Notes under the pieces: generated by a model | Database searches by the model: none | Told to the model about the DNA's origin: nothing | Seen by the model: only the letters and a program-made list of their open reading frames with translations | NCBI GenBank assembly: GCA_900318685.1 | Contig: ONLL01000004.1 | Location: 99,527-163,526, forward strand | DNA: 64,000 bases | Direction of reading: 5' to 3' | Source of the DNA: an uncultured Prevotellaceae bacterium | GTDB lineage: Bacteria > Bacteroidota > Bacteroidia > Bacteroidales > Bacteroidaceae | Program-made: the position numbers and the translations under genes | Part shown: positions 2,887-22,194 of the stretch, piece by piece | Numbering within the stretch: position 1 is the stretch's first letter | Layout of the letters: every line of letters starts with the position of its first letter

Positions 2887-3219
2887 ATGACGAACCTGAA
2901 CATATATGAATCGCCGATACGCATCGACCTGGTATTCGGACAGAACGCTAGGAAGGAGTCGTTCGTGGTGGTGAAGAACCATCAGCGGACGCTGCTCGAG
3001 GGTACTCCTGGAGAATGCGTGACGAAGATACGACGGATCGTGCACGAGCTGGCACTGACGCTGAAGAACCCACACATCGTGTTCTACCTGCAGACGACGG
3101 GTGATGAATATCCATATTGCGACTACGACATTGCAGAGATGAAGAGCCGGCTGATGATGGTCAGCGTGGCTAACAAATGCAGTATTGAGGTGCGCACGAA
3201 GGTGAACACCCGATTCTGA
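2887..3219 (+). CDS. Small hypothetical protein, first gene of the ubiquitin-like/baseplate operon
   Basis: This is a 110-residue protein with mixed alpha/beta character: an N-terminal strand (RIDLVFGQ), a central helix (CVTKIRRIVHELALTL), then a strand (HIVFYLQT) and a C-terminal strand (CSIEVRTKV). It has no signal peptide, membrane segment or C-terminal Gly. It sits 57 bases upstream of the ubiquitin-like gene on the same strand. I do not recognise a family. From position and size it could be a partner or adaptor of the Ubl, or a divergent small-domain protein without a conjugation tail; neither is shown by sequence. Confidence 0.75.
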   Translation: MTNLNIYESPIRIDLVFGQNARKESFVVVKNHQRTLLEGTPGECVTKIRRIVHELALTLKNPHIVFYLQTTGDEYPYCDYDIAEMKSRLMMVSVANKCSIEVRTKVNTRF

Positions 3220-3276
3220 AGAGTGAACAATCATTGAACAGAGAACAATCATAAAAAACAATTAACAATAACAACT

Positions 3277-3603
3277 ATGACAGATCAGGAATTTTATCAG
3301 GAAGAGTTTATCGTCATGCTCACCATCGACGGCACATCGTACGACGAGATCGAGGTGAAGGTGACGGATCCCAACAAGACAATACGTGATCAGATCAACA
3401 GTATTGTCCAAGTGTTTGAACTGCCGAAGATGGACAATGGTGGCAACCCCATCCAGTATCTGCTCGGCAAACTGATGGAGGACGACGAGGAGCCGGTGAT
3501 CCTGGAGTTCGAGGACGAGAGCGGACGCGAGATGGCTCTCGTCGACTATGAGATCCAGCCGCTCGACCATCTGCACCTTATCTCTGTGCCCATCGCTGGC
3601 TGA
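3277..3603 (+). CDS. Ubiquitin-like (beta-grasp) protein with C-terminal Gly
   Basis: This 108-residue acidic protein has the expected order of a ubiquitin fold: strand (EEFIVMLTID, about 7-16), strand (YDEIEVKVTD), a helix (IRDQINSIVQVF, about 36-47), then strands around VILEFEDESG and a final hydrophobic strand (LHLISVPIAG) that ends in a single Gly at the C terminus. A free terminal Gly is the conjugation-competent form for E1 adenylation, so no proteolytic maturation would be needed. The next gene encodes an E2, and E1 and JAMM genes follow in the same operon. MoaD/ThiS-type sulfur carriers end in GG and are not accompanied by E2 proteins. The assignment rests on fold pattern plus context, not on close identity to ubiquitin. 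Confidence 0.8.
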   Translation: MTDQEFYQEEFIVMLTIDGTSYDEIEVKVTDPNKTIRDQINSIVQVFELPKMDNGGNPIQYLLGKLMEDDEEPVILEFEDESGREMALVDYEIQPLDHLHLISVPIAG

Positions 3604-3655
3604 GTGAAAAGTGTAGAGAGTAGAGTGTAGAGTTTGCTACCGCATTCATATTTGC

Positions 3656-3690
3656 CTCAAATCTCAATTCTCAATTCTCAAATCTCAAAT
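3656..3690. repeat. Five 7-bp units CTCAAWT upstream of the E2 gene
   Basis: Five consecutive 7-base units of CTCAAAT or CTCAATT run to within 10 bases of the E2 start codon. The related unit CTCAAAC occurs at the start of the E1 gene (11319-11346). In this position, unit number would change the leader length but not a reading frame. Confidence 0.8.
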
Positions 3691-3700
3691 CTTGAACACC

Positions 3701-4384
3701 ATGAATCCTGCAATTAATAACTTTAACCTGAAGGAACTGAAGGGACGTGATGCCCGCTTGTTCCAGGAATGGAAGGAACTGGACTCGCTGTGCAGCAAGC
3801 GCAAAGCTGACAGTCCGAACCCACTGAAACCTTCCTTGTCGTATATCATCAGAAGAAAGAACGCCGTTGGACTGCCCACGGAGTTTGAGATATGGTACCG
3901 CTGCAAGAGCATCGTCGGCGTGGAGGATACTCCTGCCCCTCGCAAGCCCATCTTCGGCTATCTGCACAAGATGAGCGTGGTGCTGCCCAATAACTACCCC
4001 TCGGCCGACGGTAACCCAGTCTTCACGTTTATCAGCGACATCTGGCATCCTAACATCCGCTATAGCGGCTCGTTCAAGGGACATGTTTGCCTGACCATCA
4101 AGGAGATGGGCGTGCTGGCCTCGATCAAAGACCTGGTGCTGCGCGTGGAGCGCTACCTGAAGTATCAGATGTATCATGCCCAGAACACCTATCCTTATCC
4201 TGAGGATCAGACGGTGGCTGAGTGGGTGCGCGAAGAGGCCGAGCCCAACGGCTGGACGAAGTTCACACAGGAGATGCCTCAGCCTGAGCAGAAGCCTCAG
4301 CCTGCACCTGAGCCACAGGCAGAAGCTGCCCCTGCTGCTGCAGCTGAAGAGAAGCCCAAGAAAAAGATCACACTAAGCATTTAA
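3701..4384 (+). CDS. Ubiquitin-conjugating (E2/UBC-fold) enzyme
   Basis: I start the 227-residue protein at ATG 3701, not the upstream TTG at 3692. The canonical E2 core is readable: LPNNYP (95-100), a strand with PVFTF (106-110), then W-HPN at 115-118 and G-H-V-C-L with Cys130, matching the eukaryotic pattern YP...P...F..-HPN...G-x-CL. His116-Pro117-Asn118 and the Cys 12 residues after Asn are the expected oxyanion and thioester positions. The core is followed by helices (about 140-185) and a Pro/Glu/Gln/Ala-rich tail (192-222). The predicted role is to accept the Ubl from the E1-like protein on Cys130 and transfer it to a target. It is cytosolic. Next gene starts 5 bases after the stop. Confidence 0.9.
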   Translation: MNPAINNFNLKELKGRDARLFQEWKELDSLCSKRKADSPNPLKPSLSYIIRRKNAVGLPTEFEIWYRCKSIVGVEDTPAPRKPIFGYLHKMSVVLPNNYPSADGNPVFTFISDIWHPNIRYSGSFKGHVCLTIKEMGVLASIKDLVLRVERYLKYQMYHAQNTYPYPEDQTVAEWVREEAEPNGWTKFTQEMPQPEQKPQPAPEPQAEAAPAAAAEEKPKKKITLSI

Positions 4385-4389
4385 GGAAG

Positions 4390-5481
4390 ATGAAAAAGTT
4401 ACTTTTATCCCTACTCTGCTGTCTGCTGGCCTCCACTGGCTGGGCCGACGAGCAAAGGAAAATCACGCTGAGCAACGACAACCAGCAGGAGACCGTCAAC
4501 CTGTCGTACTGCAACATCTTCGTCACACTGATCAATCCTGATGCTGACGAGGCCGCAAAGGTGCTCATCGAAGTGGAGAACCTCGACGAAACGAAGCTTT
4601 TGGCACTATATCACCAGCCCTACAACGAGAAACAGGTGAAGAAGCTGAGGCCTTCGTTCAAGTATGACAAACTGTTTGGAGGAACGAAGGGCAAGCGTAT
4701 CATCGATCCCTGCAGCCTTCCTATGAATAAAGATGTGTTCGTGGAGCCATCCAACAAGTACAGCCTGCCTCACTTCAACGTGAATGCAGACGAGACGATG
4801 GTGGTGAAGCTGCCCATCTATATCGCCAAGTCGAAGAAGGACGGCATTATCCAGCGCATTCTGGGGAAAGAGAAGCTCATCCTGCTGCGCAAGCAGGTGA
4901 TCGAGCTCGACATCGAGGTATCGATGAAGCCATCGGCTGAATACCTGGGTCTGCAGAAGGATATAGAGACGCTGAAGAAGGATGTGAACAATGCTGTATT
5001 CTGCACCCACAGAAACCACCGCCAGTCGGTGGAGCAGCAGCAAGAGCCCTACAAGAAGCGCATCGACGACCTGAAGGCCAAGATCGATGCCGCTATCAGC
5101 CAGCACGGCTGGAGCGCCAGCGATGGTGGCTATCAGCGCTATGCCGCTCTGAAGGACGACATCGACAAGAACATCGACCTGAATAAGCACCTGGGCACCT
5201 GCCGCCAGCATCGTGGTGGTGGTACACCTGCAGGACACCAGTGCAGCTACTGCTCACTGTCACTGCAGCAAATCTACCATAAGCTGGACGACCTCTATAA
5301 GAAGATCTACAGCAGCAACGACCGCCAGGCTACGAAGGCCAGCGTGATGGGCCAGGTGAACGCCCTCTACAATTGCTGCACAGCTGCTGACTGCGCCAAG
5401 CATGCTTCACAGTGGCGAAATGGTGGTGGAGGCTACAAGAGCAGGATTCAAGAACGCTACAACCGCATCCAAGGCCTATGA
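4390..5481 (+). CDS. Periplasmic Cys-containing coiled-coil protein of the operon
   Basis: This 363-residue protein has a clear signal peptide (MKKLLLSLLCCLLASTGWA, cleavage near 20). The mature part has a beta-rich region (about 25-185, with repeated strands ending in VIELDIEVSM), a coiled-coil segment (about 190-245), and a His/Cys-rich C-terminal part with HQCSYCSLS, a CC and a further C-x-K-H, which may form disulfides or bind metal. It is therefore expected in the periplasm. Its stop overlaps the start of the next gene (ATGA), so the two are probably translated together and may form a complex. No family was recognised. Confidence 0.8.
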   Translation: MKKLLLSLLCCLLASTGWADEQRKITLSNDNQQETVNLSYCNIFVTLINPDADEAAKVLIEVENLDETKLLALYHQPYNEKQVKKLRPSFKYDKLFGGTKGKRIIDPCSLPMNKDVFVEPSNKYSLPHFNVNADETMVVKLPIYIAKSKKDGIIQRILGKEKLILLRKQVIELDIEVSMKPSAEYLGLQKDIETLKKDVNNAVFCTHRNHRQSVEQQQEPYKKRIDDLKAKIDAAISQHGWSASDGGYQRYAALKDDIDKNIDLNKHLGTCRQHRGGGTPAGHQCSYCSLSLQQIYHKLDDLYKKIYSSNDRQATKASVMGQVNALYNCCTAADCAKHASQWRNGGGGYKSRIQERYNRIQGL

Positions 5482-6992
5482 TGTGCAGATGGCTTTTGCG
5501 AACCGTTGTCGTGCTGCTCTCTTTGGCTGGAGCTACGAAGGGCTGGTCGAAGGAGGTGAGAGACACGCTGTTCTCTCCCTCTGGCGACAGGGTCATCGTG
5601 GACTATAGCATCACACAGAGTGGCGGACAGACAACGGTGCGCTTCAACAATATCCAGAAGAAGCTGGGCACGACCAACCAGCGGAAATACAAGAAGTTGG
5701 ACGAGGTGGCAGTGGTCATCTTCGACCGTACTGGCACCTACAACGACATGAAGTTCGATGGCATGACGCCTATGGCATTTATGGTGCCTTCAGGTGTGCA
5801 GTACAACTACTCCAACGACGGCTATTTCCTGCTGCAGGACAATCCCACGCTGCAGTTCTCATGCAGCGAGGAGGCCCAGCTGAGCATTCCGCTCTACCTC
5901 GCCCACTATGAGAAGAAGCACCACTACGAGATCTTCAGCCAGAGCGGCACCCTGCAGTTCTCGACGAAGGTCAGCGGTGGTGGAGCAGCTGGTGGCAGAG
6001 GCCGTAGCGGAGGCGGAGGTAACGGAGTTAGAGCAGCCAATGCCGACGACATCATCGTCAGCGAGGAGCTGAGCGACGAAGGGTTGACACCTCTCGACGA
6101 TGCGATGATAACCATCGCTAACGTGAGGAACCAGCTGGAGGGTGTCACCAAACTGCCTTTCCCTGAGGACCTCACCTTCCAGGCCAATCACCTGAGAGAG
6201 TTGCGCAGCCGCATCTCAGATATGGATGTGCTGCAGGACATCAATAGAGTGTTGGCTGCTTACGACAAGAAGAAGGGTGACCTGGAGGAAGGTGCCGCTG
6301 CCCAGCAGCAGGCCGCTGCAGCAGCCGCCCAGCAAGCAGCTAAAGAAGAGGCTGCCGCTCAGCAGGCCCGTCAGGACTCCATTCAGGCTGCCCAGGAAAA
6401 GAAAGCCGACGAGAAGCAGAAGGACATGATGTGGCTCATCGGTGGTATTGCCGGCCTGGGTGTATTGCTCATGGGTGGCAAGCAGATCTTCCAAAGCATC
6501 AAGAACAACAAGATGCAGAAACTGATGATGGACAACATCAACAAGGCTCAGCAGCAGGCACTGGGACAAGTGAAGATTCCTGGCCTCGACGATAATCCGC
6601 TGACTAAAGATGTCAATGCGCAGATCCAGCGTGAGGCAAGAAAGACGATGACGAAGGAAGGCGAAGCTGCCAAGCAACGGCTACAGGCCTTGCGCAAGGG
6701 CAACAGCGATGCCGCAGCTCCTCAGCCCGCACAACCAGGAAACTCTGGGCAGCCCGGATCTTCCAGAACATCTGGAAATCCCGGACATTCCGGACAACCC
6801 GCACAGCCCTCCACTCCTGGCAAGCGTCCGCTGCGAACAGTCAGCCAAGTAAAGGCAGAGGCAGGACTCGATCCCACGAAGAATGCCGGACTGGAGATCA
6901 CTGTCAAGCCACAGCGGCAGTCGCTCAATGATGCCATCCCCGCCAAATACAAGCGCTGGCGCAAGCCGGGCACGCCCGATAGCAACAAGTAA
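5478..6992 (+). CDS. Bitopic membrane protein with periplasmic beta domain and cytosolic tail
   Basis: Start chosen at ATG 5478, which overlaps the upstream stop and begins directly before a signal-peptide-like segment; the longer frame from 5412 adds a non-native leader. The protein has 504 residues: signal sequence 1-24, a beta-rich periplasmic domain (30-165), a Gly-rich linker (166-184), a helical Ala/Gln/Lys coiled coil (272-315), one transmembrane helix (318-334, MWLIGGIAGLGVLLMGG), then a basic helix and a Pro/Gly/Ser-rich cytosolic tail (435-470). The topology (outside-in) matches the following JAMM and RING proteins, suggesting a shared envelope complex. No family was recognised. The tail would face the cytosolic E2 and Ubl. 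Confidence 0.8.
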   Translation: MMCRWLLRTVVVLLSLAGATKGWSKEVRDTLFSPSGDRVIVDYSITQSGGQTTVRFNNIQKKLGTTNQRKYKKLDEVAVVIFDRTGTYNDMKFDGMTPMAFMVPSGVQYNYSNDGYFLLQDNPTLQFSCSEEAQLSIPLYLAHYEKKHHYEIFSQSGTLQFSTKVSGGGAAGGRGRSGGGGNGVRAANADDIIVSEELSDEGLTPLDDAMITIANVRNQLEGVTKLPFPEDLTFQANHLRELRSRISDMDVLQDINRVLAAYDKKKGDLEEGAAAQQQAAAAAAQQAAKEEAAAQQARQDSIQAAQEKKADEKQKDMMWLIGGIAGLGVLLMGGKQIFQSIKNNKMQKLMMDNINKAQQQALGQVKIPGLDDNPLTKDVNAQIQREARKTMTKEGEAAKQRLQALRKGNSDAAAPQPAQPGNSGQPGSSRTSGNPGHSGQPAQPSTPGKRPLRTVSQVKAEAGLDPTKNAGLEITVKPQRQSLNDAIPAKYKRWRKPGTPDSNK

Positions 6993-7019
6993 AAAACAAC
7001 GTCAACACATACAAACGTT

Positions 7020-8843
7020 ATGAAAAAGAACAAAGCATTCGTACTCATCCTTGCATTGCTCCTCATCCCTGGGCTGCAACCATGGGCAGACGCTGCCAGG
7101 AGACAGAGGACGGTCAAGCCTGCTGAGCCCGTCATCGAGGTGATGGACGCCTTCAGAGACTATGTGAAGGCCGACCCCTTCCTCTCTGACAACACTCAGA
7201 AAAGCATCAACAATGAGATCGACAAATATTGTGACGATCTGGTACACCGCTCTGACAAAGCAGATTACATAGAGAAGAACCACCTGAGGGAATACGTGAC
7301 TGAGCAGCGCCAGAAGCTGTCGCAGTATCAGGAGCAGAGCTCGCTGATCATCGAGAACATCCTTCAGAAATACGAAAACATGGAGCCCCAGAAGCGTGTG
7401 GCCTATCGCGACACCATGCAGATGGCGCTCGACGAGAAGTTCAACGCGCTCAGCACCAACCTCACTCGCCTTGACAAGGAGATCAACGTGAAGGAAGAGG
7501 AACCACTCATGGACCTGCCTTGGAAGTGGATAGGCATTGCTGCGGGTGCCCTGCTGCTGCTCATCATCCTCTTGGTGATTGTGAGCAAGAGTAAGAAGAA
7601 CAAGCCTGCAAGGCCTGCCTACAGGCCCACTGCTGGTCCACGAAACAACGTGAGCAGCTATGGCAACAGAGGAGGCGGTCAGCAGCAGTCGGCAGATGGA
7701 GGCATCGTGGTACGACGCAAGACGGCTACCATTCTGAAGAAGCAGAGCCTGGAGGATGTCATCGACAATCCCAATTACCTGCAAGTGGATGCCATTGACT
7801 TCACCTATGAGTCGGCAGTCAGGCGCATGTACATCAAGAATAGCTGTATCGTCGACATATATAATATGTACGCGGAAGACCTGCGCAATCCGGCCAGCCC
7901 CAAGGAGGACGGATGCATGGTGCTGGGCCGCTGGGTGCACGACTCTGAGAGCAACGAGTATTATGTCTCCTTAGAGGAAATAGTACTGCCTGGCGACGAT
8001 GCTGTCTTCGAAGAGTACGCACTCAACTTCGGAGGAAAGATCAAGCTGAAGGTACTGGAACAGCTGCGCAAGCTTCGCCGCGAGACCAACCTCCAGTACG
8101 ACCTCACCTGCTGGGTGCACTCGCATCCTGGTCTGGGCGTATTCTTCAGCAACAGCGACACGTCTGTACAGGATCAGCTAAAGCACCCCCAGCATCCTAA
8201 TTTCCTCACTGCCATCGTGGTGGACATCCTCACTCCAATGCAGGATCTGGGTATCTTCACCTTCCGTCGCGACACCACCATCAACTCGAAGAACGACCTG
8301 AAGAAGATGTACTCTCTCGTCGAATGGTACCAGTGGGCACAGGAGAGTTTGAAGACCTCCGTAGAGCGTCCTGTTGCTGCCACACCTAAGGAGTTCAAGA
8401 GCGTGGAATATTTCAACATGCTGCAGAATGCACAAGAGCACAATGACTCCTGCTACGGCGTAGAGCTGAGCAAGAACGTGGTGGTCGACATCTGCACGGA
8501 CCTTGTAGGACAGGGCGACGATATCCTAGCCATGCTTCATGGCGTAGCCAGCCAGCACGGGTCGCAGATAGAATATGTGGCAGAGCAAATCTCGGACAAG
8601 GAATCTGAACCGAAGCTCAGTCTCACGGGTTGCTTCATGGCTGCTCCCCACTGCAGCATTCCCACAGTACGCCGTGCCGTGGCTGACTATCTCGACAGAA
8701 TCCGCTTCGTGGTGGTTTATACTCCGAACGACGGTCTGCTCACTACTATTCCCGTCATCAACAGCGACCTCTGCACAGAGGAGAGCTACTATGGTGAGCA
8801 GAAACTGGAAGATTTGAAAACATGGATAAAACAAAGCAGATAA
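7020..8843 (+). CDS. Membrane-anchored JAMM/JAB isopeptidase-like protein
   Basis: The protein has 607 residues: signal peptide 1-25, a helical periplasmic region (35-160), one transmembrane helix (about 169-188) followed by basic residues (positive-inside), a disordered linker (195-225), then a JAB/MPN domain. The JAMM metal motif is complete: Glu296 in EDGCMVLG, His367-Ser-His369-Pro, then Ser377-x2-Asp380 after the seven-residue spacer (HSHPGLGVFFSNSD). In eukaryotes this domain removes ubiquitin or NEDD8 with Zn. Here the predicted role is to deconjugate or process the operon's Ubl at the inner face of the membrane. The C-terminal 200 residues are an additional alpha/beta region I do not recognise. 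The stop overlaps the next start (TAATG). Confidence 0.9.
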   Translation: MKKNKAFVLILALLLIPGLQPWADAARRQRTVKPAEPVIEVMDAFRDYVKADPFLSDNTQKSINNEIDKYCDDLVHRSDKADYIEKNHLREYVTEQRQKLSQYQEQSSLIIENILQKYENMEPQKRVAYRDTMQMALDEKFNALSTNLTRLDKEINVKEEEPLMDLPWKWIGIAAGALLLLIILLVIVSKSKKNKPARPAYRPTAGPRNNVSSYGNRGGGQQQSADGGIVVRRKTATILKKQSLEDVIDNPNYLQVDAIDFTYESAVRRMYIKNSCIVDIYNMYAEDLRNPASPKEDGCMVLGRWVHDSESNEYYVSLEEIVLPGDDAVFEEYALNFGGKIKLKVLEQLRKLRRETNLQYDLTCWVHSHPGLGVFFSNSDTSVQDQLKHPQHPNFLTAIVVDILTPMQDLGIFTFRRDTTINSKNDLKKMYSLVEWYQWAQESLKTSVERPVAATPKEFKSVEYFNMLQNAQEHNDSCYGVELSKNVVVDICTDLVGQGDDILAMLHGVASQHGSQIEYVAEQISDKESEPKLSLTGCFMAAPHCSIPTVRRAVADYLDRIRFVVVYTPNDGLLTTIPVINSDLCTEESYYGEQKLEDLKTWIKQSR

Positions 8844-11221: not shown

Positions 11222-11239
11222 AGAATTGAGATTTGAGTA

Positions 11240-13532: not shown

Positions 13533-14552
13533 ATGCCTAAAAGAATCAGTTGGAAAAAAGGAATGCGCCTCACCGACGAGGTGCTCTCGGCTGCCGATGC
13601 CTGCGCTGCCGAGCATATCAACAAAGCACTCATCCTGGGTGCAGCAGGACGTTTCGGACTGCTGCCCTCCACCAAACCGTTCCTGCTGCAAATGAGCGTT
13701 GCCAAGGGCTTCGTCGACGTTGAAGCACTCGACTGTCTGGCCATCACCCGTGGCGGCTACCTCGTAGATGTGCATTTCGACACGAAGTTCACCAACACGT
13801 TCGACGGTCGCGTACAGATTCCCGGCCATGAAGACGAGAAGGAATATATCCTCACCATCAACGTCAGCCCCGACGAATGGCGCGACACTCCTGACGGATA
13901 TCGTGAACCCGTTTATTCCTTTGCATTGGTAAGTGCCAAGACGGCTATTCCTGACAATGCCATGCCTATCGGACGCATCGTTAACGACGAAGGCTGGCGG
14001 GAAGACAATGTGCAGTTTGTGCCTCCCTGCCTCTATCTGGTCTCTCATCCCAGGTTCGAGGAGTTGCATGCCCAGTTCATCTCCCTGCTGCGCAACATCG
14101 ACGAGTCTACACGTGCTCAGATTGAGACGGGTGCCCATGCTGCCATCACCGTCTACTGGCCCGTGGTGATGCAGATGCTCGTCAAGGCCAATACGGAGCA
14201 TGAGCTCATGGCTCCACAATCGCTGCTGTCATGCGTGCAGCGCGTGGTGGGAGCCTTTACCATGGCTTGCGAGCTCGACGAAGTGCTATCTTTGGAGGAT
14301 GCCCAGGTATTCCGCAATTATGCACGTGCCCCTCACAACTACCGCAACGTCTATATCCGTATCAAACAGGGACTGGGCATGTGCTATGCCATCACCCAGA
14401 AGATTGAGAAGTTCAGTCTGCTCAAGAAGGAAGAGCCCAAGCCAGAGCCCATACCTGAGCCGAAGCCAGAACCTAAGCCGGAGCCCATACCTGAGCCGAA
14501 GCCAGAACCCAAGCCCGATCCACGCCGTATCTGGGACGGTAAGCGCATATGA
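13533..14552 (+). CDS. TssK-like baseplate protein with Pro/Glu/Lys repeat tail (tentative)
   Basis: This is a 339-residue cytosolic protein. The N terminus, ISWKKGMRLTDEVLSAAD, resembles the TssK start, where a Trp-x2-Gly-Met-x-Leu motif opens the shoulder domain that binds the baseplate wedge. The middle has beta-rich segments and the end is helical (about 190-300). The tail holds two copies of a 36-base repeat (14445-14480 and 14481-14516) encoding PEPIPEPKPEPK, probably a flexible, charged linker. It is shorter than proteobacterial TssK (about 440). It overlaps the gp25-like gene by 4 bases. In type VI systems TssK links the baseplate to the membrane complex. The assignment is moderate. 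Confidence 0.5.
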   Translation: MPKRISWKKGMRLTDEVLSAADACAAEHINKALILGAAGRFGLLPSTKPFLLQMSVAKGFVDVEALDCLAITRGGYLVDVHFDTKFTNTFDGRVQIPGHEDEKEYILTINVSPDEWRDTPDGYREPVYSFALVSAKTAIPDNAMPIGRIVNDEGWREDNVQFVPPCLYLVSHPRFEELHAQFISLLRNIDESTRAQIETGAHAAITVYWPVVMQMLVKANTEHELMAPQSLLSCVQRVVGAFTMACELDEVLSLEDAQVFRNYARAPHNYRNVYIRIKQGLGMCYAITQKIEKFSLLKKEEPKPEPIPEPKPEPKPEPIPEPKPEPKPDPRRIWDGKRI

Positions 14553-15043
14553 GTTTCATCAGCACCCCCCTCAGCTATCAGGAGCCGAGCCTATGCCTCG
14601 ACCGCAACATCGCTGACCGCATAGGTATGCTCGACAACCTCGTTGAGCTCATTGTCTTCACACCACGAGGATCGTTCGTGGCCGACCCTGACTTTGGTTT
14701 TGAGTACTGGAACCACGAATATGCCAACGTACACTATCGTGAGTTCAACATCAGCCAGACGGGTAAGATTGCCAATGGCCTCTACAACGAGGTGACGAAA
14801 AAGGAATGCGAGGACAGCATACGCACCAGTCTGGCCACCTATGAGCCCATGCTCAAGAACGTTATCGTTTCAATAGAACTCGACACAACTGAGGGAAAGA
14901 GCATGCGCAGGAAAAAGGTGGCATCGAAATACGAGGTCAACGTTGTCGTAGAAGGACGCATAGACGATGGTCTGGGCACGCTTGTCCCATACAGGAAAGT
15001 GGTTGTCTTCCTCATCGAGCCCACGGTGAAGCGCTATAGATAG
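14549..15043 (+). CDS. TssE / gp25-like baseplate wedge protein
   Basis: This 164-residue protein has the GPW/gp25 pattern: an N-terminal helix (IADRIGMLDNLVELIVF), then TPRGSFVADPDFGFEYW, which matches the conserved T-x-x-G-x-R...P-x-FG segment, and later CEDSIRTSLATYEPMLKNVIVSI, matching the conserved helix and strand ending in YEPRL-x-x-V. Size is typical for TssE. gp25 proteins are wedge components of T4, type VI and related contractile baseplates, and their presence is the firmest evidence that this part of the operon encodes a contractile-type baseplate. The start codon overlaps the stop of the TssK-like gene (ATGA). Confidence 0.8.
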   Translation: MSFISTPLSYQEPSLCLDRNIADRIGMLDNLVELIVFTPRGSFVADPDFGFEYWNHEYANVHYREFNISQTGKIANGLYNEVTKKECEDSIRTSLATYEPMLKNVIVSIELDTTEGKSMRRKKVASKYEVNVVVEGRIDDGLGTLVPYRKVVVFLIEPTVKRYR

Positions 15044-15082: not shown

Positions 15083-16873
15083 ATGGATATAGAACTCCAA
15101 AAACGAATCAATGATGCCGTCATAGCACTGGGGCAGCTCTCTGCTCAGCCCATCGACTTCCAGCAGATGGATCCCGTAGCAAAGATGATGCTCGTGGCAC
15201 TGGTATGCGAGACACAGAAGATACAAGACTACGTCGACGGAGCAACAGAGCGTATCGTCGACCGCTTCTGCGTGGACTTTATTCCCAGAAAGAACATCGA
15301 AGCCATGCCTGCCGTGTGCCTCATACAACCTGAGATTAAGCCTCGTACAGACAACACACTGGCAAACACAGGGTCAGGCGACATCTATAGCTACAAGAAT
15401 CCTAACAGCAAAACACCCCTCAACTATATCCCGATCTTCAATACCACGCTACTGCCACATACGGGCCTATACCTGCTCAATCAGCACTACCTCCATCACG
15501 GCAATGATGCTATCAACATCAGTATGGAGAAGTCCAACCGTCTTTGGATAGGTATCAAGACCGCGACAGAAGTAGACTGTTTGAAAGGACTCTCACTGCT
15601 CATCAAGGGTACTGATGGCATGATGCCTGAACATGTGTATGTAGCTACCACAGGACAGGAACTCGACTTCTCGACCATGCACGAGATGGAGAATATCGAG
15701 ATGGCAGAGCCTTTCGATGCCCAGCAGGCTTCGGAGCAGTTCTTCTCACTCATCGAGAATTGGAAGGAGTGCCTGCTCAATATCAACGATGCAGCCTTGC
15801 TCTACATCACCGATGAGGCCATCGACCGCGACATGTTCAAGCCACGTCCCTACCCACGGCAGTTCCAGCAATGGCTGGAGAGCGAGGTGCTCGACTATTT
15901 CCAGCCCGCTACCATCTGGCTACGCCTGGATTTCCCAGAGGGATATAATGTGCCTGACAACTGTGACGTCATGCTCAACACCCTGCCCGTCACCAACATC
16001 GATGTCAACTCGCTCATGCTCACACAGGCACAGCCCATCGCCAAGCTGCAAAATATCGACGATGCCTTCTTCCTGCGTATCCTGGAGACTAGCACAGCCA
16101 GCCATCGGCAGGGCTTCAACATGACTGCTGATGATATCATCGTGCGTGACTTCGACGCTCAATGCTATAACAACGGCAACCTCTATCGCGACGTGCGCAA
16201 TCTCTACAACCGCTTCATCGACGACTATTATGCCTTCATCGAGTATAACGGCATCAAGGACGGTGAGGTATTACGACAGCTGCGCGAGACCATCAACAAA
16301 TTGGGAAAGAGTGTGGGATTGCAGAACGAGACTTTCAAGTTCGACAGCGGCACTTATGTCATGAAGAATATGAGCCAGTATCCTCCAACGTCGTCAACAC
16401 GTGTCAGCTATATCACTACTATGGGGCGCATTGGCAACACGCCACGCACTGGCGACATGCTTGAGAACAAAAAAAATCCTGGTCTCGAACAAAAGGCGCC
16501 CATCGTCGTCTCCGCCATGGGAGGAGCCGACAAAGCTACAGCCGACGAGCGCTATGAGCAGCTGCGTTACTATGCCCTGACCAACGACCGTCTCTATACA
16601 CGCATGGACATCGATGCCTTCCTACGTAAGGAGTTATTGGCAGAGTTCGGCAAGGATGAGTTCCGGCGCATCTTCATCAAGATCAACATTGAAGGAGCGG
16701 GAGGTGCCGACAGCCTTCAACGAGGGCTCTACATCGACATTGAGTTCAAGGATCGCAAGAACTACGAGCATGCCCAGAAAATGAGCTACGACCATCTTAT
16801 CTACCAGCGCATACGCAACAAGTCGTGCATCGCCATGCCCATCATCGTCAAACTCAAGAACCTCGAGGAATGA
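15083..16873 (+). CDS. TssF-like baseplate protein
   Basis: This 596-residue protein has the length of TssF (about 590-620). The N-terminal third has the family layout: DPVAKMMLVALVCETQKIQD (helix with leading DP), then a helix with ERIVDRFC, and FIPRKNIEAMPAVCLIQP, comparable to the P-x-PS/A-x-x-V-x-Q-F/P region in TssF and other J-like wedge proteins. The C-terminal part (about 500-596) is alpha/beta and resembles the domain that closes the wedge. No signal peptide or membrane segment is present. In T6SS, two TssF and one TssG form the wedge with TssE. It overlaps the hydrolase gene by 4 bases. Confidence 0.65.
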   Translation: MDIELQKRINDAVIALGQLSAQPIDFQQMDPVAKMMLVALVCETQKIQDYVDGATERIVDRFCVDFIPRKNIEAMPAVCLIQPEIKPRTDNTLANTGSGDIYSYKNPNSKTPLNYIPIFNTTLLPHTGLYLLNQHYLHHGNDAINISMEKSNRLWIGIKTATEVDCLKGLSLLIKGTDGMMPEHVYVATTGQELDFSTMHEMENIEMAEPFDAQQASEQFFSLIENWKECLLNINDAALLYITDEAIDRDMFKPRPYPRQFQQWLESEVLDYFQPATIWLRLDFPEGYNVPDNCDVMLNTLPVTNIDVNSLMLTQAQPIAKLQNIDDAFFLRILETSTASHRQGFNMTADDIIVRDFDAQCYNNGNLYRDVRNLYNRFIDDYYAFIEYNGIKDGEVLRQLRETINKLGKSVGLQNETFKFDSGTYVMKNMSQYPPTSSTRVSYITTMGRIGNTPRTGDMLENKKNPGLEQKAPIVVSAMGGADKATADERYEQLRYYALTNDRLYTRMDIDAFLRKELLAEFGKDEFRRIFIKINIEGAGGADSLQRGLYIDIEFKDRKNYEHAQKMSYDHLIYQRIRNKSCIAMPIIVKLKNLEE

Positions 16874-17847
16874 AACGTTTCCTATCCTTCATCACGCTGA
16901 TATTGACGGTCGTGCTAGTCACACAAGCACAGTCGTCGGCCGACATCCTCGCATACGTTGACAAGTACAAACAGATAGCCCTCGACCAAGAGCGTCAATA
17001 TGGCATACCCGCTCCCATCACCCTTGCACAAGGTATCCTTGAGTCTGGAGCAGGCAAGAGCGGACTGACACGCAACTCCAATAACCATTTCGGCGTGAAA
17101 GCCCTCGGCGGATGGAATGGCGGTGTCTATAAGGCATGGGACGACGAGCCGCAGAAGAGTTCCTTCCGCGTCTATGCCTCCGCTGCCGAGTCCTTCCGCG
17201 ACCACTCGCTCGTGCTGAAGAACTCATCTCGCTATCGCAGTCTTTTCTCCAAGAGTATTTATGACTATCGCGGTTGGGCCATCGGCCTTCAGAGGGCGGG
17301 CTATGCAACGGCAAAGAACTACGCTGCAGCTCTTATCGGATTCATTGATACTTACCGTCTCTATGCCATCAACGGAGGCGTGAAGCTCCGTGCAGGCAAG
17401 ACTGTCATCGTGCGACAAACCGTCAACAACGCCCCCACCTTCGATGCCGACTGCCAGATGGACGATGAAGAGCAATCGGAAGAGGAGCAGACCGTCGCTC
17501 AGGCTGTTACCCGCTATGTAGTGGAAATCAACGACATCAGCTGTACCATCCTCTATCCTGGCACTACCCTCTCGAGCATTGCCATGCAGTATGACATCCC
17601 CAAGGACAAGCTTCTGGAGTTCAATGAAGTAGTCGTTGAAGAAGAACTGCATGAGGGCGACATCGTCTTCCTCGACAAGAAGAAAAAGAAATACGAAGGT
17701 GCTAAGGACTTCCACTATGCCAAGGAAGGCGAGACGCTCTACTCCGTCTCTCAGGAATACGGCATCAAGGTGGCCAATCTCGCTAAGATGAACCGCATGG
17801 ACATCTCTGAGAAACTATACGAAGGAACTAAGCTCATTCTTAAATAA
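16870..17847 (+). CDS. Exported glucosaminidase-type peptidoglycan hydrolase with two LysM domains
   Basis: The start is the ATG at 16870 that overlaps the TssF-like stop and begins a signal peptide (MKRFLSFITLILTVVLVTQA). The protein has 325 residues. Residues about 24-165 match the glucosaminidase (lysozyme-like) family: ITLAQGILESGAGKSGLTRNSNNHFGVK, with Glu58 as probable catalytic residue and the conserved N-x-x-FG. An acidic linker (about 190-210) leads to two LysM modules (about 225-275 and 278-325; the second has EGETLYSVSQEYGIKVANLAKMN). LysM binds peptidoglycan. Here it could open the cell wall for an envelope-spanning apparatus, in the manner of hydrolases used by secretion systems. 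Confidence 0.85.
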   Translation: MKRFLSFITLILTVVLVTQAQSSADILAYVDKYKQIALDQERQYGIPAPITLAQGILESGAGKSGLTRNSNNHFGVKALGGWNGGVYKAWDDEPQKSSFRVYASAAESFRDHSLVLKNSSRYRSLFSKSIYDYRGWAIGLQRAGYATAKNYAAALIGFIDTYRLYAINGGVKLRAGKTVIVRQTVNNAPTFDADCQMDDEEQSEEEQTVAQAVTRYVVEINDISCTILYPGTTLSSIAMQYDIPKDKLLEFNEVVVEEELHEGDIVFLDKKKKKYEGAKDFHYAKEGETLYSVSQEYGIKVANLAKMNRMDISEKLYEGTKLILK

Positions 17848-17920
17848 GAAACGAAATCACGAAATACCGATATATCGAAATAATGTTATATCGTTACAAC
17901 CACTTAAAATCTTTCATAAG

Positions 17921-19426
17921 ATGCTTGATTTAAAACTAATTGCAGAAAGCGGCCAGCTCTTTGACCATCATTATAAGCTCATCCGCCCACTGAGCACAGA
18001 TGGAGGCACTGCCGACGTCTGGCTCGCCCTCGACATGAATACCGTCAAGGACCCCTCGACAGTCGGAGACCTTACCAAACTATATGATGATGAGGTCGAA
18101 GCACTCGGGCTTATCGTAGCCATCAAGATCTACCGCCCACAGAATGCACTCGACATCGAAGGAGAGCAGCGGTTCCGCGAGGAGTACATGATTGTGTACA
18201 ACTGCCATCACACCAACCTCATCCATCCCACCAACTTCTCCATCTATCAGGAAACGCCTTACCTCGTATTGCCGTACTGCAAGCTCGGATCCTCCGACCT
18301 GCTCATCGGCAACATGCCCAATGCTGAAGTGATGTGGAAGTTCATCGGCGACGTATCGTCAGGATTGGCTTACCTACATGCGCTTAATCCCCCCATCATT
18401 CATCAGGACATCAAGCCGGGCAACGTGCTTATCGACGATAACCTCAACTATGCCATCACTGACTTTGGCATCAGTGCCAAGGACTGTGGAGGTTCCAACA
18501 CCGACGAGGAGGCAGAAGAACGTAGTGGTACCATGGCCTACATGTCACCGGAACGCTTCAACGAAGGTGCAGAGCCCAACCAGGCCAGCGACATCTGGGC
18601 TTTGGGAGCCACGCTTTGCGAACTGGTAACAGGCGAATTACCTTTCGGCGAAGAGGGAGGATGGGCCCAAGTGCAACAGCAAATGCCCATGCCAGACCTG
18701 CCCAACATGCCTAGCGATATCAAGCGTCTCATCCATGCCTGTATGGACATCGATCCTGAGAAACGCCCGACAGCAGATTATATCAGTAAGGCCGCTGCTG
18801 CACATCAGTTCCCCTTGAAGAAAAAGAAGACAGGGCTCATCATAGGTATCATCGCCCTTTGCGCCCTGCTCATCGGCATAGGAGTCACTTATCTCCTCAA
18901 GGACTCTGAGGTACAGATTGTCACTGAGGAGAGCACTCCTCCTGAGGTGGTCTACGAAAAAGCCATCGGCCTGCTCAACAGCACCATCCCCGACAGCGTG
19001 AAAGTTGGTGCTGAGATGATGGACAGCCTCAGCGGCATCAAATATCCGCCTGCTATCTATGAGATGGCCTTCACCTACGGATGGTTCTCTGACTCCGTAT
19101 CGGTAGCACGCAAGAAGATGCTAGGTATCGATATCTTCGAGAGTGGCGACAGTAAATATTTGCCCACTAGCGACCGCTGGAGCAACAAGGCCGTGGCACT
19201 CTTCACAACCATGCTTGAACTCAAGGACTCCACCTACGCTGCCAAGAATGCTGAGGCAGCCTATCGCCTGGCATGCTATTATGAGGTGCCTAACGCCATC
19301 TTCCAGCGTAACTTGGAGAAGAGCAAGAAATTCCTGCTTGTTGCCAAAGACTGGGCCCAGCTCTCAGGCAATAACGCCTTGCTTGAGCGTGTCAACAACG
19401 GACTTGAAAGAATCGGAGCGAAGTAA
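17921..19426 (+). CDS. Transmembrane Ser/Thr protein kinase (PpkA-like)
   Basis: This 501-residue protein has an N-terminal kinase domain (about 18-295): VAIK with Lys69, catalytic loop HQDIKPGN (161-168; Asp163, Lys165, Asn168), DFG (181-183), SPE in place of APE (209-211), SDIWALG with Asp224 and RP at 282-283. HQD replaces HRD, so it may not need activation-loop phosphorylation. A transmembrane helix follows (about 304-325), then a periplasmic helical region (330-501) with TPR-like character. It is predicted to phosphorylate cytosolic targets and to sense the envelope through the outer part. With the FHA-bearing RING protein and the PP2C gene it makes the threonine-phosphorylation set known from type VI loci (PpkA-PppA-Fha). 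Confidence 0.9.
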   Translation: MLDLKLIAESGQLFDHHYKLIRPLSTDGGTADVWLALDMNTVKDPSTVGDLTKLYDDEVEALGLIVAIKIYRPQNALDIEGEQRFREEYMIVYNCHHTNLIHPTNFSIYQETPYLVLPYCKLGSSDLLIGNMPNAEVMWKFIGDVSSGLAYLHALNPPIIHQDIKPGNVLIDDNLNYAITDFGISAKDCGGSNTDEEAEERSGTMAYMSPERFNEGAEPNQASDIWALGATLCELVTGELPFGEEGGWAQVQQQMPMPDLPNMPSDIKRLIHACMDIDPEKRPTADYISKAAAAHQFPLKKKKTGLIIGIIALCALLIGIGVTYLLKDSEVQIVTEESTPPEVVYEKAIGLLNSTIPDSVKVGAEMMDSLSGIKYPPAIYEMAFTYGWFSDSVSVARKKMLGIDIFESGDSKYLPTSDRWSNKAVALFTTMLELKDSTYAAKNAEAAYRLACYYEVPNAIFQRNLEKSKKFLLVAKDWAQLSGNNALLERVNNGLERIGAK

Positions 19427-19482
19427 GGCAAAAGGTTAAAAGGTTAAAAAGTTAAAAGGTTAAAACGTTAAAGGTTTACATA
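19427..19482. repeat. AAAAGGTT-type short tandem repeat between kinase and exported-protein genes
   Basis: About six degenerate copies of an 8-10-base unit (AAAAGGTT with variants AAAAAGTT and AAAACGTT) fill the gap between 19433 and 19475. It looks like slippage-derived spacer; no promoter box was seen. Confidence 0.7.
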
Positions 19483-21255
19483 ATGAAACGAATATTTAGG
19501 GCATTACTCTTTCCACTTTCCACTTTCCTCTTTCCACTCTCCACTCATGCTCAGGTAGCTCAGTGGCTGGTGCCTCCCGTCTATGATGACATCGAGTTGC
19601 CTGCCGATGCCAATATCGTCATTGCTGACTCAGCCAACATCACTACAACCCTATGGAGCATCAGCGGACGGCGCCTGCTCACCACAAAGGACCTGGTGAA
19701 CTCCTACTCCGACGGATTCGTGGTCACCACCAATAAGGATGACGCATACATAACTGGCATCTACGACTCCAACGGCAATTCCCTACCCTTTGAGAAAGTG
19801 CAGCTGGGCTGGGGATACCCCTTGTTCCACGACGGACATCTGCTTGTACACGACGGTTACTACTTCTATTACATGGATGCCAACGGACAAATCGACAATA
19901 CCCAGTACGTCAGAGCATATCCCTTCTCTGGAGGATTCGCCTCGTGTTACACCTATGAGAACATCCGTAAACAGAAAGACCCCTACTACATCCTCATCGA
20001 CAAGAATTTGAAGGAAGTGCCGCTGACCTGCGAGGGCAAGCCACTCGGACGTGGCGATATCGACTTCATCTCATCAGTCAACGACGAGGGACTGGCCGTC
20101 ATCTCTGTAAAACATAAACTATACTATTTCGAAGCATCTACCAAGGAGCTACGTCCTCTCTATGCCACTCCTGACGAAGACAATATCAAGAACCAAGGCA
20201 AGATGGACGGTGACCTCGGCCAGTGCTACGTCAGCGAGGAGGACTCCTCCTTCCTTCGTGCCAAGTGCGGGCGTGCCGGCAACATCGAGATCGTCTTCGA
20301 TGCTCTGCTCAAGCCCATCGCCATCAAGCACGATGGAGCCCGGCATGAATTCGCCAGCAAGCAGGCATCTGCTCTCTTCGACAACTCCATGCTTCAGTCA
20401 GAGAAAGGATCCGACGGAAAATACAATCTTCAGTTGAACGGCAAAGAGATTCTGCCTCCGCAGTTCGACAAGGTCATCTACATATCGGGCGACAAAGCCA
20501 TCGTCATGCTCAACGATAAGTGCGGACTGCTGCAGATACATCCTAACGACAAGCTGCAACTCAGCCTGAACAAAGGCAATCCCATAGCCTTCCGCCACAG
20601 GCGTTTCGACACCACCATACGCCTCGACATGCCTTCCTATATCAATCCGAGAGCTACCAACATCGAGATGGAGGACCAAACGGGATGCATCATCGACAAG
20701 ATTTCCAAAGAGACCAAGAATACCGACATCGGCAACTACGTGCAGTATAACTGCGTGCTCAATGTGCCGCAGTCCATTCCCGACGATGAGACGACAGAAC
20801 TCACCTACCCGCTCTACATCGTACACGAGGGTTTGCGTACACCCATAATGAGCGTCAAGGCTGATGCCTGGCACTACAAGTATTACAACGTGGACATTAG
20901 CGAAACCTCCATCTCCAACGGGGCACTTTTCTTCACTACCAACATCAGTGCCGAGCGACTGCCAGGTGAGGATTTATATCCCTACACTTGCAAACTGATT
21001 ACTGAGAACGTCAGTTGGGAAATGGTAGAAAAGGTTTCAGAGACTCGCTATAAGTGGAAGGTCAACAGCCTCAAAGAAGGCAACAACAACGTTATCGTAT
21101 CGATACTGGAGGAAGGCTGTCCGCCCTCCAACTACACTTTCGAGCTGGATTACAACAAGCCTGTCGCCAACACGCCGAAGGCACCTGTGATTATGAAGGA
21201 GAAGAAGGCGAAAACCGTCACCCCTCCCATTCGTCGAGATCACCTAGACATCTGA
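19483..21255 (+). CDS. Exported WG-repeat-like protein
   Basis: The protein has 590 residues with a signal peptide (to about residue 24) that is itself made of a pyrimidine repeat encoding LFPLST twice. The mature part begins WLVPPVYDDIELP and includes DGYYFYYMDANGQIDNTQYVRAYPFSGGFASC and later LQLNGKEILPPQFDKVIYISGDKAIV, which follow the WG/KWG beta-repeat pattern (strand, G-x-ID-x-x-G, P-x-Y/F, strand). The C-terminal 200 residues are beta-rich and end in a basic tail. WG-repeat proteins are often periplasmic binding scaffolds. It lies between the kinase and phosphatase genes with an 7-base gap to the latter, so a sensor or scaffold role for the apparatus is plausible but unproven. Confidence 0.7.
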   Translation: MKRIFRALLFPLSTFLFPLSTHAQVAQWLVPPVYDDIELPADANIVIADSANITTTLWSISGRRLLTTKDLVNSYSDGFVVTTNKDDAYITGIYDSNGNSLPFEKVQLGWGYPLFHDGHLLVHDGYYFYYMDANGQIDNTQYVRAYPFSGGFASCYTYENIRKQKDPYYILIDKNLKEVPLTCEGKPLGRGDIDFISSVNDEGLAVISVKHKLYYFEASTKELRPLYATPDEDNIKNQGKMDGDLGQCYVSEEDSSFLRAKCGRAGNIEIVFDALLKPIAIKHDGARHEFASKQASALFDNSMLQSEKGSDGKYNLQLNGKEILPPQFDKVIYISGDKAIVMLNDKCGLLQIHPNDKLQLSLNKGNPIAFRHRRFDTTIRLDMPSYINPRATNIEMEDQTGCIIDKISKETKNTDIGNYVQYNCVLNVPQSIPDDETTELTYPLYIVHEGLRTPIMSVKADAWHYKYYNVDISETSISNGALFFTTNISAERLPGEDLYPYTCKLITENVSWEMVEKVSETRYKWKVNSLKEGNNNVIVSILEEGCPPSNYTFELDYNKPVANTPKAPVIMKEKKAKTVTPPIRRDHLDI

Positions 21256-21262
21256 TTGCACC

Positions 21263-22132
21263 ATGAAAATAAGCATATATGCAAAAACCGATGTAGGCTG
21301 CGGGCGAGAGAACAACGAGGATGCCTTCGCATTCTGTCCCAACCTTTCTTCTCCTCAGTGGAACCTTAACCACACCAAGGGCTACATTCCACTCGGGCCT
21401 CAGGGAACACTCATCATAGTAGCCGACGGCATGGGAGGAGCCAATGCCGGTGAGGTGGCTTCTGCTATAGCCATCGAAACGGTGAAGAAAGCATTCAGCG
21501 GAGAGCAACTTGTCAAGGCTGCTGCCAGCGAGGAAGCTGCCCGGCAATTGCTTATCAAAGCCATTCAGGATGCTGACGAGGCCATCAACCTGAAAATGTT
21601 CGACAATCCTGAGACAGCAGGCATGGGCACTACCATCGTCGTTTGCTGGCTCACCGCACAAAAGGCCTTTGTCGCCTGGTGTGGCGACAGCCGCTGCTAT
21701 CGCTACAACGATGCCGACGGACTGCTGCCCCTCACTAAGGACCACTCCTATGTGCAGGAACTCATCGACCGCGGTGAACTGACGGTGGAGGAAGCCTTCC
21801 AGCATCCCGACAACAATATCATCACTCGCGGACTGGGCGACTTCGACACGCAGGTACAACCCGACATCGCAGTCAGCACAATAAAACCAGGCGATATGTT
21901 CATGCTATGCTCCGACGGACTCTGCGGCTACTGCACCAACGAACAAATTCGAGGCATACTAGCCGACAGCAAGGGTAACACAGAGAAATGTTCAGAAGAC
22001 CTGCTTCGGAAAGCCCTTGAAGTACCTGGTGACGATAACATCTGCATCGTAGTGGCCTCGCTACTCGATGACAATGCTCAGGAACCTTCCAGTTCCAAGT
22101 TCCGCCAGTTCATGAGCAAGCTCTTTGGATAG
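21263..22132 (+). CDS. PP2C-type Ser/Thr protein phosphatase (PppA-like)
   Basis: This 289-residue cytosolic protein has all main PP2C motifs: RENNED (15-20), ADGMGG with metal-binding Asp55, an MGTT motif (about 127-130), CGDSRCYRY, a DHSYVQELI segment, ITRGLG, GDMFMLCSDGL and PGDDNICIVVASL at the end. Such phosphatases reverse phosphothreonine marks with Mn or Mg. It is the last gene of the block and precedes a strong terminator. In type VI loci a PP2C enzyme opposes the PpkA kinase and lowers FHA-dependent activation; the same opposition is predicted here. Confidence 0.92.
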   Translation: MKISIYAKTDVGCGRENNEDAFAFCPNLSSPQWNLNHTKGYIPLGPQGTLIIVADGMGGANAGEVASAIAIETVKKAFSGEQLVKAAASEEAARQLLIKAIQDADEAINLKMFDNPETAGMGTTIVVCWLTAQKAFVAWCGDSRCYRYNDADGLLPLTKDHSYVQELIDRGELTVEEAFQHPDNNIITRGLGDFDTQVQPDIAVSTIKPGDMFMLCSDGLCGYCTNEQIRGILADSKGNTEKCSEDLLRKALEVPGDDNICIVVASLLDDNAQEPSSSKFRQFMSKLFG

Positions 22133-22149
22133 CACATCTTTCTATCTAT

Positions 22150-22194
22150 GAGTCAGCCCCCTTCTCACTCTGAGGAGGGGGCTGACTCGTTTTT
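22150..22194 (+). terminator. Strong intrinsic terminator closing the operon
   Basis: A 13-bp perfect stem (GAGTCAGCCCCCT at 22150-22162 and AGGGGGCTGACTC at 22176-22188) with a 13-base loop is followed by GTTTTTA. It lies 17 bases after the PP2C stop and 11 bases beyond the 3' end of the convergent gene, so it may serve both strands. Confidence 0.9.

Follow-up and report, generated by a model that had tools for sequence, protein, structure and literature searches.

A 64,000-nucleotide stretch of contig ONLL01000004.1 from an uncultured Prevotellaceae bacterium (GCA_900318685.1; hereafter the window) carries, in one gene run, the baseplate genes of a type VI secretion system (T6SS) together with a predicted conjugation cascade built of a ubiquitin-like protein (Ubl), an E1-like enzyme, an E2, a membrane protein with a RING-like region and a membrane JAMM protein. 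The secretion genes resemble T6SSiii, the Bacteroidota kind of T6SS, and T6SS loci with a Ubl cascade were found in many rumen and gut Bacteroidales records. Our favoured reading, to which we give a probability of roughly 0.55, is that the cascade likely conjugates the Ubl to the baseplate or membrane-anchor proteins of the T6SS itself and thereby controls assembly.

Results

A Bacteroidota-type T6SS locus

The window sits in a contig of 271,650 bases, and the genome of 3.96 Mb is 87% complete. In our own gene calls, 17 genes follow one another on the plus strand at 1254-22132 (all features below lie on this strand), closed by a terminator-like hairpin at 22148-22190 with a 20-pair stem and a T-tail. 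This hairpin is the sole strong plus-strand site of its sort within 2700-22600; counted over both strands, terminator-like sites are not above chance (16 observed vs 16.7 in shuffles). The first-pass annotation had described Ubl, E2, E1, JAMM, RING, baseplate-like and hydrolase genes on one strand with one terminator, and Pfam, profiles and motifs recover all of them. Its extent of 2887..22194 holds at the right end, at about 22190, but the locus reaches about 14 kb upstream of the window start, and the gene at 2887..3219, encoding a small variable accessory protein without a Pfam match, belongs to a family present in only 11 of the 89 source stretches examined.

The 18.5 kb lying 5' of the window (L001; L-numbers denote fetched stretches and G-numbers sampled genomes) contain a NusG-like gene, a double-AAA Clp ATPase, a 151-residue TssB, TssC, two TssD, VgrG, a 316-residue protein, a DUF4280 protein and a cargo candidate. 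TssC matches PF17541 at 2.7e-128, the two Hcp proteins (TssD, PF17642) reach 8.4e-32 and 1.8e-29, VgrG matches Phage_GPD (4.8e-14) and Phage_base_V (7.3e-10), and the DUF4280 protein, which we take to be PAAR-like, matches its family at 5.7e-31. TssB has no Pfam match itself, and its hidden Markov model (HMM) picks the small gene adjoining TssC in canonical loci (e.g. 2.7e-42). The Clp ATPase heads the run; ClpB and ClpA score above the ClpV1 model, all below cut-offs, an HMM of the family retrieves the Clp gene of canonical loci, and the protein is named ClpV because of its gene position. The sheath, Hcp, VgrG and ClpV-like genes for which an upstream search had been proposed were thus found, and the presence of the Clp ATPase, TssB, TssC, TssD, VgrG and PAAR-like genes makes this a Bacteroidota-type T6SS locus. 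A search for the sheath with the Pfam model VipB (PF05943) gave no match in the genome, where the Bacteroidota model PF17541 does match, and a phage-type sheath (PF04984), as in extracellular contractile injection systems (eCIS), was likewise not found in this 87% complete assembly.

Two upstream genes are worth recording in their own right. The Hcp gene at L001:9812-11965 encodes 717 residues, with a long apolipoprotein-like helical N-terminal part ahead of the TssD domain. The NusG/KOW gene heading the run (L001:4376-4972) belongs to a family also present in G033, G098, G122, L059 and L061 and is possibly an antiterminator for the long transcript.

For TssG, TssK and TssF, direct Pfam matches are none or weak, and the proteins were identified through profile-profile comparison with canonical T6SSiii families, in which the four matching pairs reach 99.1-99.9% (hhalign) and all twelve wrong pairs stay below 1%. 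TssG (12633..13523) scores 99.7% against its canonical counterpart and <1% against TssK, TssE and TssF. TssK (13533..14552) scores 99.1%, with a sub-cut-off NCBIfam TssK match of 7.7e-5; TssE/gp25 (14549..15043) also scores 99.1%, with PF04965 below cut-off at 9e-5 and NCBIfam at 0.01; TssF (15083..16873) reaches 99.9% (E 5e-37). In the other direction, the HMMs of the Ubl-associated families find canonical baseplate genes, e.g. in a stretch of G432 that also carries TssN (TssF 1.5e-36, TssG 1.3e-28, TssK 8.7e-16, TssE 4.5e-12). The gp25/TssE-, TssF-, TssG- and TssK-like genes of the first-pass annotation therefore belong to T6SS baseplate families and not to unrelated ones. In summary, the locus shares with T6SSiii (the Bacteroides fragilis GA3 type) the Clp ATPase, TssB, TssC (PF17541), TssD (PF17642), VgrG, the PAAR-like protein and TssE/F/G/K. 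It differs in having no TssN/O/P/R match, in the Ubl cascade within the run and in lower TssC scores, which are mostly 316-454 bits in Ubl loci (568 in G196) vs 634-770 for full-length canonical proteins.

The conjugation cascade

The Ubl (3277..3603) has 108 residues and a single Ubl domain ending in ...VPIAG*. It has no convincing Pfam match; its AlphaFold2 model is a beta-grasp fold (pLDDT 87.1, pTM 0.79), for which Foldseek returns Caldiarchaeum ubiquitin, FAT10 and many ubiquitins from the PDB (probability 1.00, TM by target mostly ~0.65-0.76, best E 3.4e-4). Since other beta-grasp proteins, e.g. a toluene monooxygenase subunit, are matched as well, the Ubl fold is clear and closeness to ubiquitin is not proved by the fold. 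The Ubl profile matches ubiquitin over approximately residues 53-70, weakly for single copies (0.015-0.23), while strong values against poly-ubiquitin are inflated by the repeats. The C-terminus is well kept: from 470 homologues found, the 120 listed comprise 118 ending in Ala-Gly, one in Pro-Gly and one extending four residues beyond Gly-Gly, and the loci themselves (81 rows) show 66 Ala-Gly, 14 Pro-Gly and one other end.

The E2 (3692..4384, with the start likely at the ATG at 3701) carries H119-P120-N121 and C133, which are invariant across 15 aligned E2s down to about 40% identity with the window E2. UQ_con matches at 8.4e-6, just under the Pfam cut-off, and the best match of the E2 profile is UBE2K (1.4e-7). 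A separate observation concerns the E2 C-terminus (4340-4381): 95 of the 120 homologues listed end in [LIV][STN]I, mostly after a Lys/Arg-rich step as in KISLSI, whereas the type B tails inspected (see below) are without this end. Judging from the sequences, the tail is possibly a docking motif. The E1-like enzyme (11306..12643) matches ThiF at 3.1e-47, and both its adenylation motifs and C196, the candidate catalytic cysteine, are conserved in at least 95% of 75 sequences.

The membrane JAMM protein (7020..8843) matches Prok-JAB below the Pfam cut-off (0.0051), and the ligands E296, H367, H369, S377 and D380 are conserved in at least 95% of 65 sequences. Over the metal motif, the best profile matches are a Caldiarchaeum Rpn11 homologue (5.6e-4) and CSN5 (0.007). 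Hydropathy indicates a signal segment, a likely periplasmic region, a helix at 171-189 and a likely cytosolic JAMM domain. The neighbouring gene (8822..11221) encodes a 799-residue membrane protein that combines vWA, RING, several helices and FHA and is a candidate E3. Eight zinc-ligand positions (C422, C425, C439, H441, H444, C447, C455, C462) are conserved in at least 95% of 78 sequences, and the AlphaFold2 model (pLDDT 83.5, pTM 0.62) returns vWA domains (TM by target ~0.6) and FHA domains (~0.7) in Foldseek, with no RING entry among the best 50 matches. A signal segment, a helix at 373-391 ahead of the RING and six helices from RING to FHA were read from hydropathy, a layout by which RING and FHA would be cytosolic and the vWA domain periplasmic.

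Between E2 and JAMM, two signal-peptide proteins are candidate envelope components: one (4390..5481) has a signal-like N-terminus and a family present in 65 of the 77 named loci described below, while the other (5478..6992), whose ATGA overlaps the preceding gene, has a family present in 63 and an internal hydrophobic stretch falling below the helix threshold used. Together with the membrane JAMM and vWA-RING-FHA proteins, they form a candidate T6SS anchor.

Several genes of the run overlap, as the first-pass annotation had noted for lengths of 4-11 bases: by 4 bases at 5478-5481 (ATG 5478), 11 at E1/TssG, 4 at TssK/TssE and 4 at TssF/hydrolase (ATG 16870), but by 22 at JAMM/RING (counted from the first ATG). 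The 11-base E1/TssG overlap, which had been taken to link the two halves translationally, is present in the window but not general. Some overlap at this junction occurs in 35 of 72 rows (five of which duplicate another), i.e. in about half of the loci, and we rejected it as a conserved coupling device.

Distribution and architecture

Loci were picked through E2 alone, and a scan of GTDB contigs gave 77 named loci, with 89 source stretches in all. In 75 of these 77, the fetched stretch includes at least one T6SS gene, the exceptions being L043, a contig of 6.7 kb, and L089; the two halves joined by the first-pass annotation thus also co-occur elsewhere. TssC is in the stretch for 32 loci and elsewhere in the genome for 37 of the other 45 (69/77 in total). 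Not one of the 77 loci has its core genes (>40 bits) on mixed strands, and where core genes are missing (Ubl, RING, E1, TssG, TssK; in type A also the two signal-peptide proteins and JAMM), the end of the stretch accounts for all cases except L089.

Sampling of genomes points in the same direction. At family level, E2 occurs in 6 and TssC in 12 of 151 genomes; TssC accompanies E2 in every one of the six, sharing its contig in five and lying on another in G006 (Fisher 6e-8). At order level, E2 occurs in 5 and TssC in 15 of 295 genomes; four of the five carry TssC on the same contig, and the fifth, G166, is without it (Fisher 2e-5). The tests treat genomes as independent, and since the window's genome is in both samples and the genomes are related, these values serve as a guide only. 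In the phylum sample, E2 was found in 3 of 395 genomes, namely the window's genome and two congeneric ones (G505, G599). T6SS genes also accompany the copies found in three additional families of the order (G196, G326, G390). Carriers also occur among strain records not labelled metagenome-assembled (Xylanibacter muris PMUR, Palleniella intestinalis PINT, Barnesiella sp. An22, Parabacteroides distasonis An863 and An897, Millionella massiliensis), which points to the existence of cultured strains with the cascade.

Two architectures can be distinguished. Type A, to which the window belongs (65/77 loci), runs ClpV-B-C-D-I-PAAR-[cargo]-Ubl-E2-sp-tm-JAMM-RING-E1-G-K-E-F (sp and tm being the two signal-peptide proteins), followed past TssF by hydrolase, kinase, WG and phosphatase genes in the window, G113 and G122, and by a hydrolase and two kinases in G033. 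Type B (12/77, including the Parabacteroides and Millionella records) runs PAAR-E1-G-K-E-F-Ubl-E2-(two envelope-like proteins)-RING, where the two envelope-like proteins were read in G034 and G006; its Ubls share 24-28% identity with the window Ubl.

What both types lack are matches to the remaining T6SSiii proteins. TssN is the TssK-binding hub of T6SSiii and bears a fused cytosolic ubiquitin-like fold (PMC10781749; here and below, statements on cited papers refer to the portions of their text covered). Among the 11 canonical genomes tested, 9 have a TssN match above cut-off (G417 and G395 do not), vs 0 of 9 genomes with both E2 and TssC, a test that left out the TssC genomes G387 and G420; in the window's genome, a single match below cut-off (7.9e-5) lies on another contig. 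A Pfam check of the canonical set in one genome recognized TssN, TssR and TssO by name; TssQ was assigned from a weaker TssO match together with its position, and TssP from PKD domains and position. Profiles of canonical TssN, O, P and R (O, P and R built from 3-4 sequences each) gave no match in the 89 stretches, and the TssQ profile one antisense match (0.0055), with the searches for O, P, Q and R confined to the loci. We also considered the vWA-RING-FHA, JAMM and signal-peptide proteins as diverged TssN/O/P/Q/R, which was rejected at a highest hhalign value of 6.8%, as was a resemblance of the Ubl to TssN (0.6%).

Co-divergence with the core apparatus

To judge core versus cargo membership, we used pairwise raw identity distances, not trees, with five duplicate rows removed, G013 left out and 500 shuffles. 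Within type A, RING distances follow those of TssG (r=0.86, 57 loci), TssK (0.87, 35 loci) and TssC (0.87, 25 loci), in contrast to VgrG (r=-0.10, 46 loci), a value reached by 424 of 500 shuffles. The pattern points to a cascade that is inherited with the core apparatus, while tip and cargo get exchanged.

Flanking genes

Past TssF, the run continues with a peptidoglycan hydrolase of glucosaminidase and LysM domains (16870..17847, open reading frame from 16825; PF01832 1.7e-33, PF01476 2.5e-14), a Ser/Thr protein kinase with one membrane helix at 304-322 (17921..19426; PF00069 2.3e-39), a WG-repeat protein (19483..21255; PF14903 4e-8) and a PP2C protein phosphatase (21263..22132; PF00481 2e-14). 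Pfam places these, like ThiF, above cut-off, and the E2, Prok-JAB and gp25 domains fall just under it. At its 5' end, the run begins with a DUF2931 protein (1254..2342; PF11153 2.9e-6), immunity-like as judged from position. It is preceded, at the margin of the system, by the C-terminal part of a long protein (148..1257) whose reading frame has no start in the window and gave 0 Pfam matches; lying 3' of the VgrG and PAAR-like genes, it is by position a T6SS cargo candidate. Searches of the window for tRNAs and Rfam families gave 0 matches, and E1 was the sole match in PHROGs. The PADLOC matches of E1 were to E1-E2 models and fell on its ThiF part; single weak matches of two other proteins (0.0094 and 0.049) were disregarded.

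Discussion

Relation to known systems

Besides T6SSiii, several known systems share parts of this locus. Pseudomonas T6SS is under threonine-phosphorylation control by PpkA, PppA and Fha, and a membrane Ser/Thr kinase, a PP2C phosphatase and an FHA domain are likewise present in our run, with the difference that FHA here shares one protein with vWA and RING. Cap2 of the type II cyclic oligonucleotide-based antiphage signalling system (CBASS) is an E1-E2 fusion, whereas here E1 and E2 are separate genes and a Ubl is present. Type II CBASS does resemble the cascade in combining E1/E2 activities with a JAMM protein (Cap2/Cap3; PMC11153139, PMC10449767), but Cap2 acts on a CD-NTase, a family not among the Pfam matches in the run.

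The BilABCD operon unites Ubl, E1, E2 and JAMM (PMC11354881, PMC11364771) and tags a phage tail protein, which is of interest as the T6SS is itself tail-like. The Ubl of Bil is a tandem one, its E2 carries a CEHH motif, its E1 contains two adenylation domains, and none of its four genes encodes a RING (PMC11354881). The locus here differs by its single Ubl domain, HPN E2 and single ThiF domain; its RING and JAMM proteins are membrane proteins, and T6SS genes accompany them. The closest complete set that we met is the Ubl tri-ligase of FtsH-ternary conflict systems, which also comprises E1, E2, RING E3, Ubl and JAB together with vWA domains (PMC7159879). In those systems E2 and EAD1 are fused with the Ubl, FtsH, MoxR-vWA and effectors act as partners, and a T6SS partner is not mentioned in the portions covered, whereas here Ubl and E2 are separate, vWA is joined with RING and FHA and the partner is the T6SS. 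In the sections covered, 'ubiquitin' is used for the TssN fold in PMC10781749 and is absent from a survey of Bacteroidales T6SS architectures (PMC4714493), while the term 'secretion system' is absent from the Ubl-cascade reviews PMC12355090 and PMC11354881. That the combination had not been described, as the first-pass annotation supposed, agrees with this mainly open-access literature, covered in part, in which we found no published description, but a prior mention in Burroughs et al. 2011 is possible.

A possible mechanism

If the cascade acts on its own machine, E1 would adenylate the Ubl and hold it as a thioester, probably on C196, before it passes to C133 of E2. The membrane vWA-RING-FHA protein, with its RING in the cytosol, would then direct the Ubl to a protein where the baseplate docks, with TssK, TssG and the membrane proteins themselves as first candidates. 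In type A, the membrane JAMM protein would strip it off again, so that the baseplate is released or recycled after firing. The Ser/Thr kinase, the PP2C phosphatase and the FHA domain would add a phosphorylation switch. The surface that TssN supplies by its fused ubiquitin-like fold would here come as a transferable tag.

Several observations speak against this reading or narrow it. Co-divergence supports core membership but not a particular target, because co-inheritance in one operon alone predicts it. RING distances also correlate with those of the immunity-like gene (type A, r=0.26, 40 loci, reached by 0 of 500 shuffles), and with both types pooled the correlation with VgrG rises to 0.46. 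The sequence matches of the RING are weak (best PDB match 0.031, Pfam below cut-off), and the homologue in G505 has a RING-like region without zinc ligands. In type B, no JAMM gene lies in the fetched stretch (12/12 loci); reversal by this JAMM is therefore not universal, and Ubl removal is either unneeded there or done by another protease. In profile comparison, neither the Ubl nor the RING protein resembles TssN or TssR. TssN was moreover not found in T6SS genomes without an E2 match (G013, G041, G098, G395, G417), so that its loss is wider than the cascade and does not itself point to it; nor was it found in G166.

The association is also not strict in either direction. Nine family genomes have a divergent TssC, and E2 was found in six of them. 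The T6SS genes of G041 and G098 lie on short contigs; G098 shows a type A-like first half whose contig ends after the PAAR-like gene, and no E2 was found in its 97% complete assembly. G013 (L025/L026) has a full T6SS gene run with Ser/Thr kinases and without cascade or TssN match, and G395 (L160/L161) a T6SS locus with Ser/Thr kinases and PP2C, likewise without TssN match or cascade; both are possibly intermediate or sister architectures.

Conversely, the module of G166, a genome of the same order, comprises E1, E2, JAMM and RING genes and a weakly matching Ubl (0.003); TssC was not found in this 96% complete genome, and a phage-type sheath lies on a different contig. L089 of the Muribaculaceae carries at 499-9612 a type A cascade minus the second signal-peptide protein, with no T6SS genes in the stretch and neither TssC nor a PF04984 sheath in the 2.0 Mb assembly. 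In the congeneric G505 and G599, an E1-Ubl-E2-JAMM-vWA/FHA module adjoins a PAAR gene, and a phage-type sheath lies on the same contig, about 20 kb off in G505 and about 44 kb in G599; Pfam finds sheath, gp25, gp19 tube, spike OB domain, PAAR and an eCIS_core protein in G505 (C65). Phage-type sheaths match in 87 of 395 phylum genomes, so their mere presence proves little and the weight lies with the physical neighbourhood in these two genomes. Copies without T6SS or near eCIS mean that the module is not tied to TssK or TssG as partners, and the first-pass view of the cascade as part of a T6SS, which fits 75 of 77 loci, does not extend to the few genomes such as G166 and L089 in which the module stands without a detected T6SS.

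Some features of these outlying loci were seen by eye or in passing. The G166 contig C685 (L159, L162, L163) holds a second JAMM-family gene and, by eye, a protein that begins like a Ubl and carries a membrane helix as well as a tandem Ubl-like protein; large proteins nearby are reminiscent of SrfB/SrfC. The L089 cascade is preceded by two genes with FHA-like starts, again by eye.

Alternative explanations

The cascade could instead tag an exported part, i.e. the Hcp tube, the spike or a cargo effector, for loading or for delivery into the target cell. In type A the Ubl gene comes after the PAAR-like and cargo/immunity-like genes, and the Hcp genes share the run, which would suit this explanation; however, type B places Ubl and E2 3' of TssF, far from the PAAR-like gene, and the type A RING co-diverges with TssG, TssK and TssC and not with VgrG (-0.10), and weakly with the immunity-like gene (0.26), so that we regard an exported target as unlikely. 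It is less probable still that the cascade is a Bil/CBASS-like module for phage defence or general stress, carried along on T6SS islands with no action on the machine. Bacterial Ubl cascades are indeed described in defence and conflict systems (PMC11364771, PMC7159879), and copies exist without a detected T6SS. Against such a passenger stand the one-strand position of the type A genes between the PAAR-like gene and TssG, the type B genes within the T6SS run in another order, the lack of mixed-strand cases among the 77 loci and the unmatched TssN/O/P/R in the loci.

Given that TssN has a ubiquitin-like fold (PMC10781749) and is not above cut-off here, the Ubl might mainly be a non-covalent structural subunit replacing that fold, with enzymes that merely mature it. 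The invariant Cys and HPN in 15 aligned E2s, the hhalign value of only 0.6% against TssN, and the near-universal Ala-Gly end (118/120 listed), which leaves little to mature, make this improbable. A sulfur carrier of the ThiS/MoaD sort, suggested by the ThiF-like E1 (3.1e-47), has a negligible probability, as an HPN/Cys E2 and RING-like and JAMM proteins share the run and no sulfur-metabolism family is among its Pfam matches.

Implications

Building on conjugation to the baseplate or anchor, we tentatively raise the possibility of a distinct lineage of contractile machines. Its anchor would be a Ubl ligase plus isopeptidase, and addition and removal of the Ubl at the junction of membrane and baseplate, replacing the TssN hub, would time docking, firing and recycling; the same module might also serve eCIS in other Bacteroidota. 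Control of a T6SS by ubiquitin-like conjugation would, if true, join two fields. Bacteria would then offer an E1-E2-RING-JAMM cascade of eukaryote-like make-up whose candidate substrate machine is in view, along with a T6SS subtype whose membrane anchor is new. Such control also poses the question of how phage-tail-like structures became targets of Ubl cascades: Bil tags the phage tail fibre and thereby blocks it (PMC11364771), and in the present case the tail-like machine would be the cell's own.

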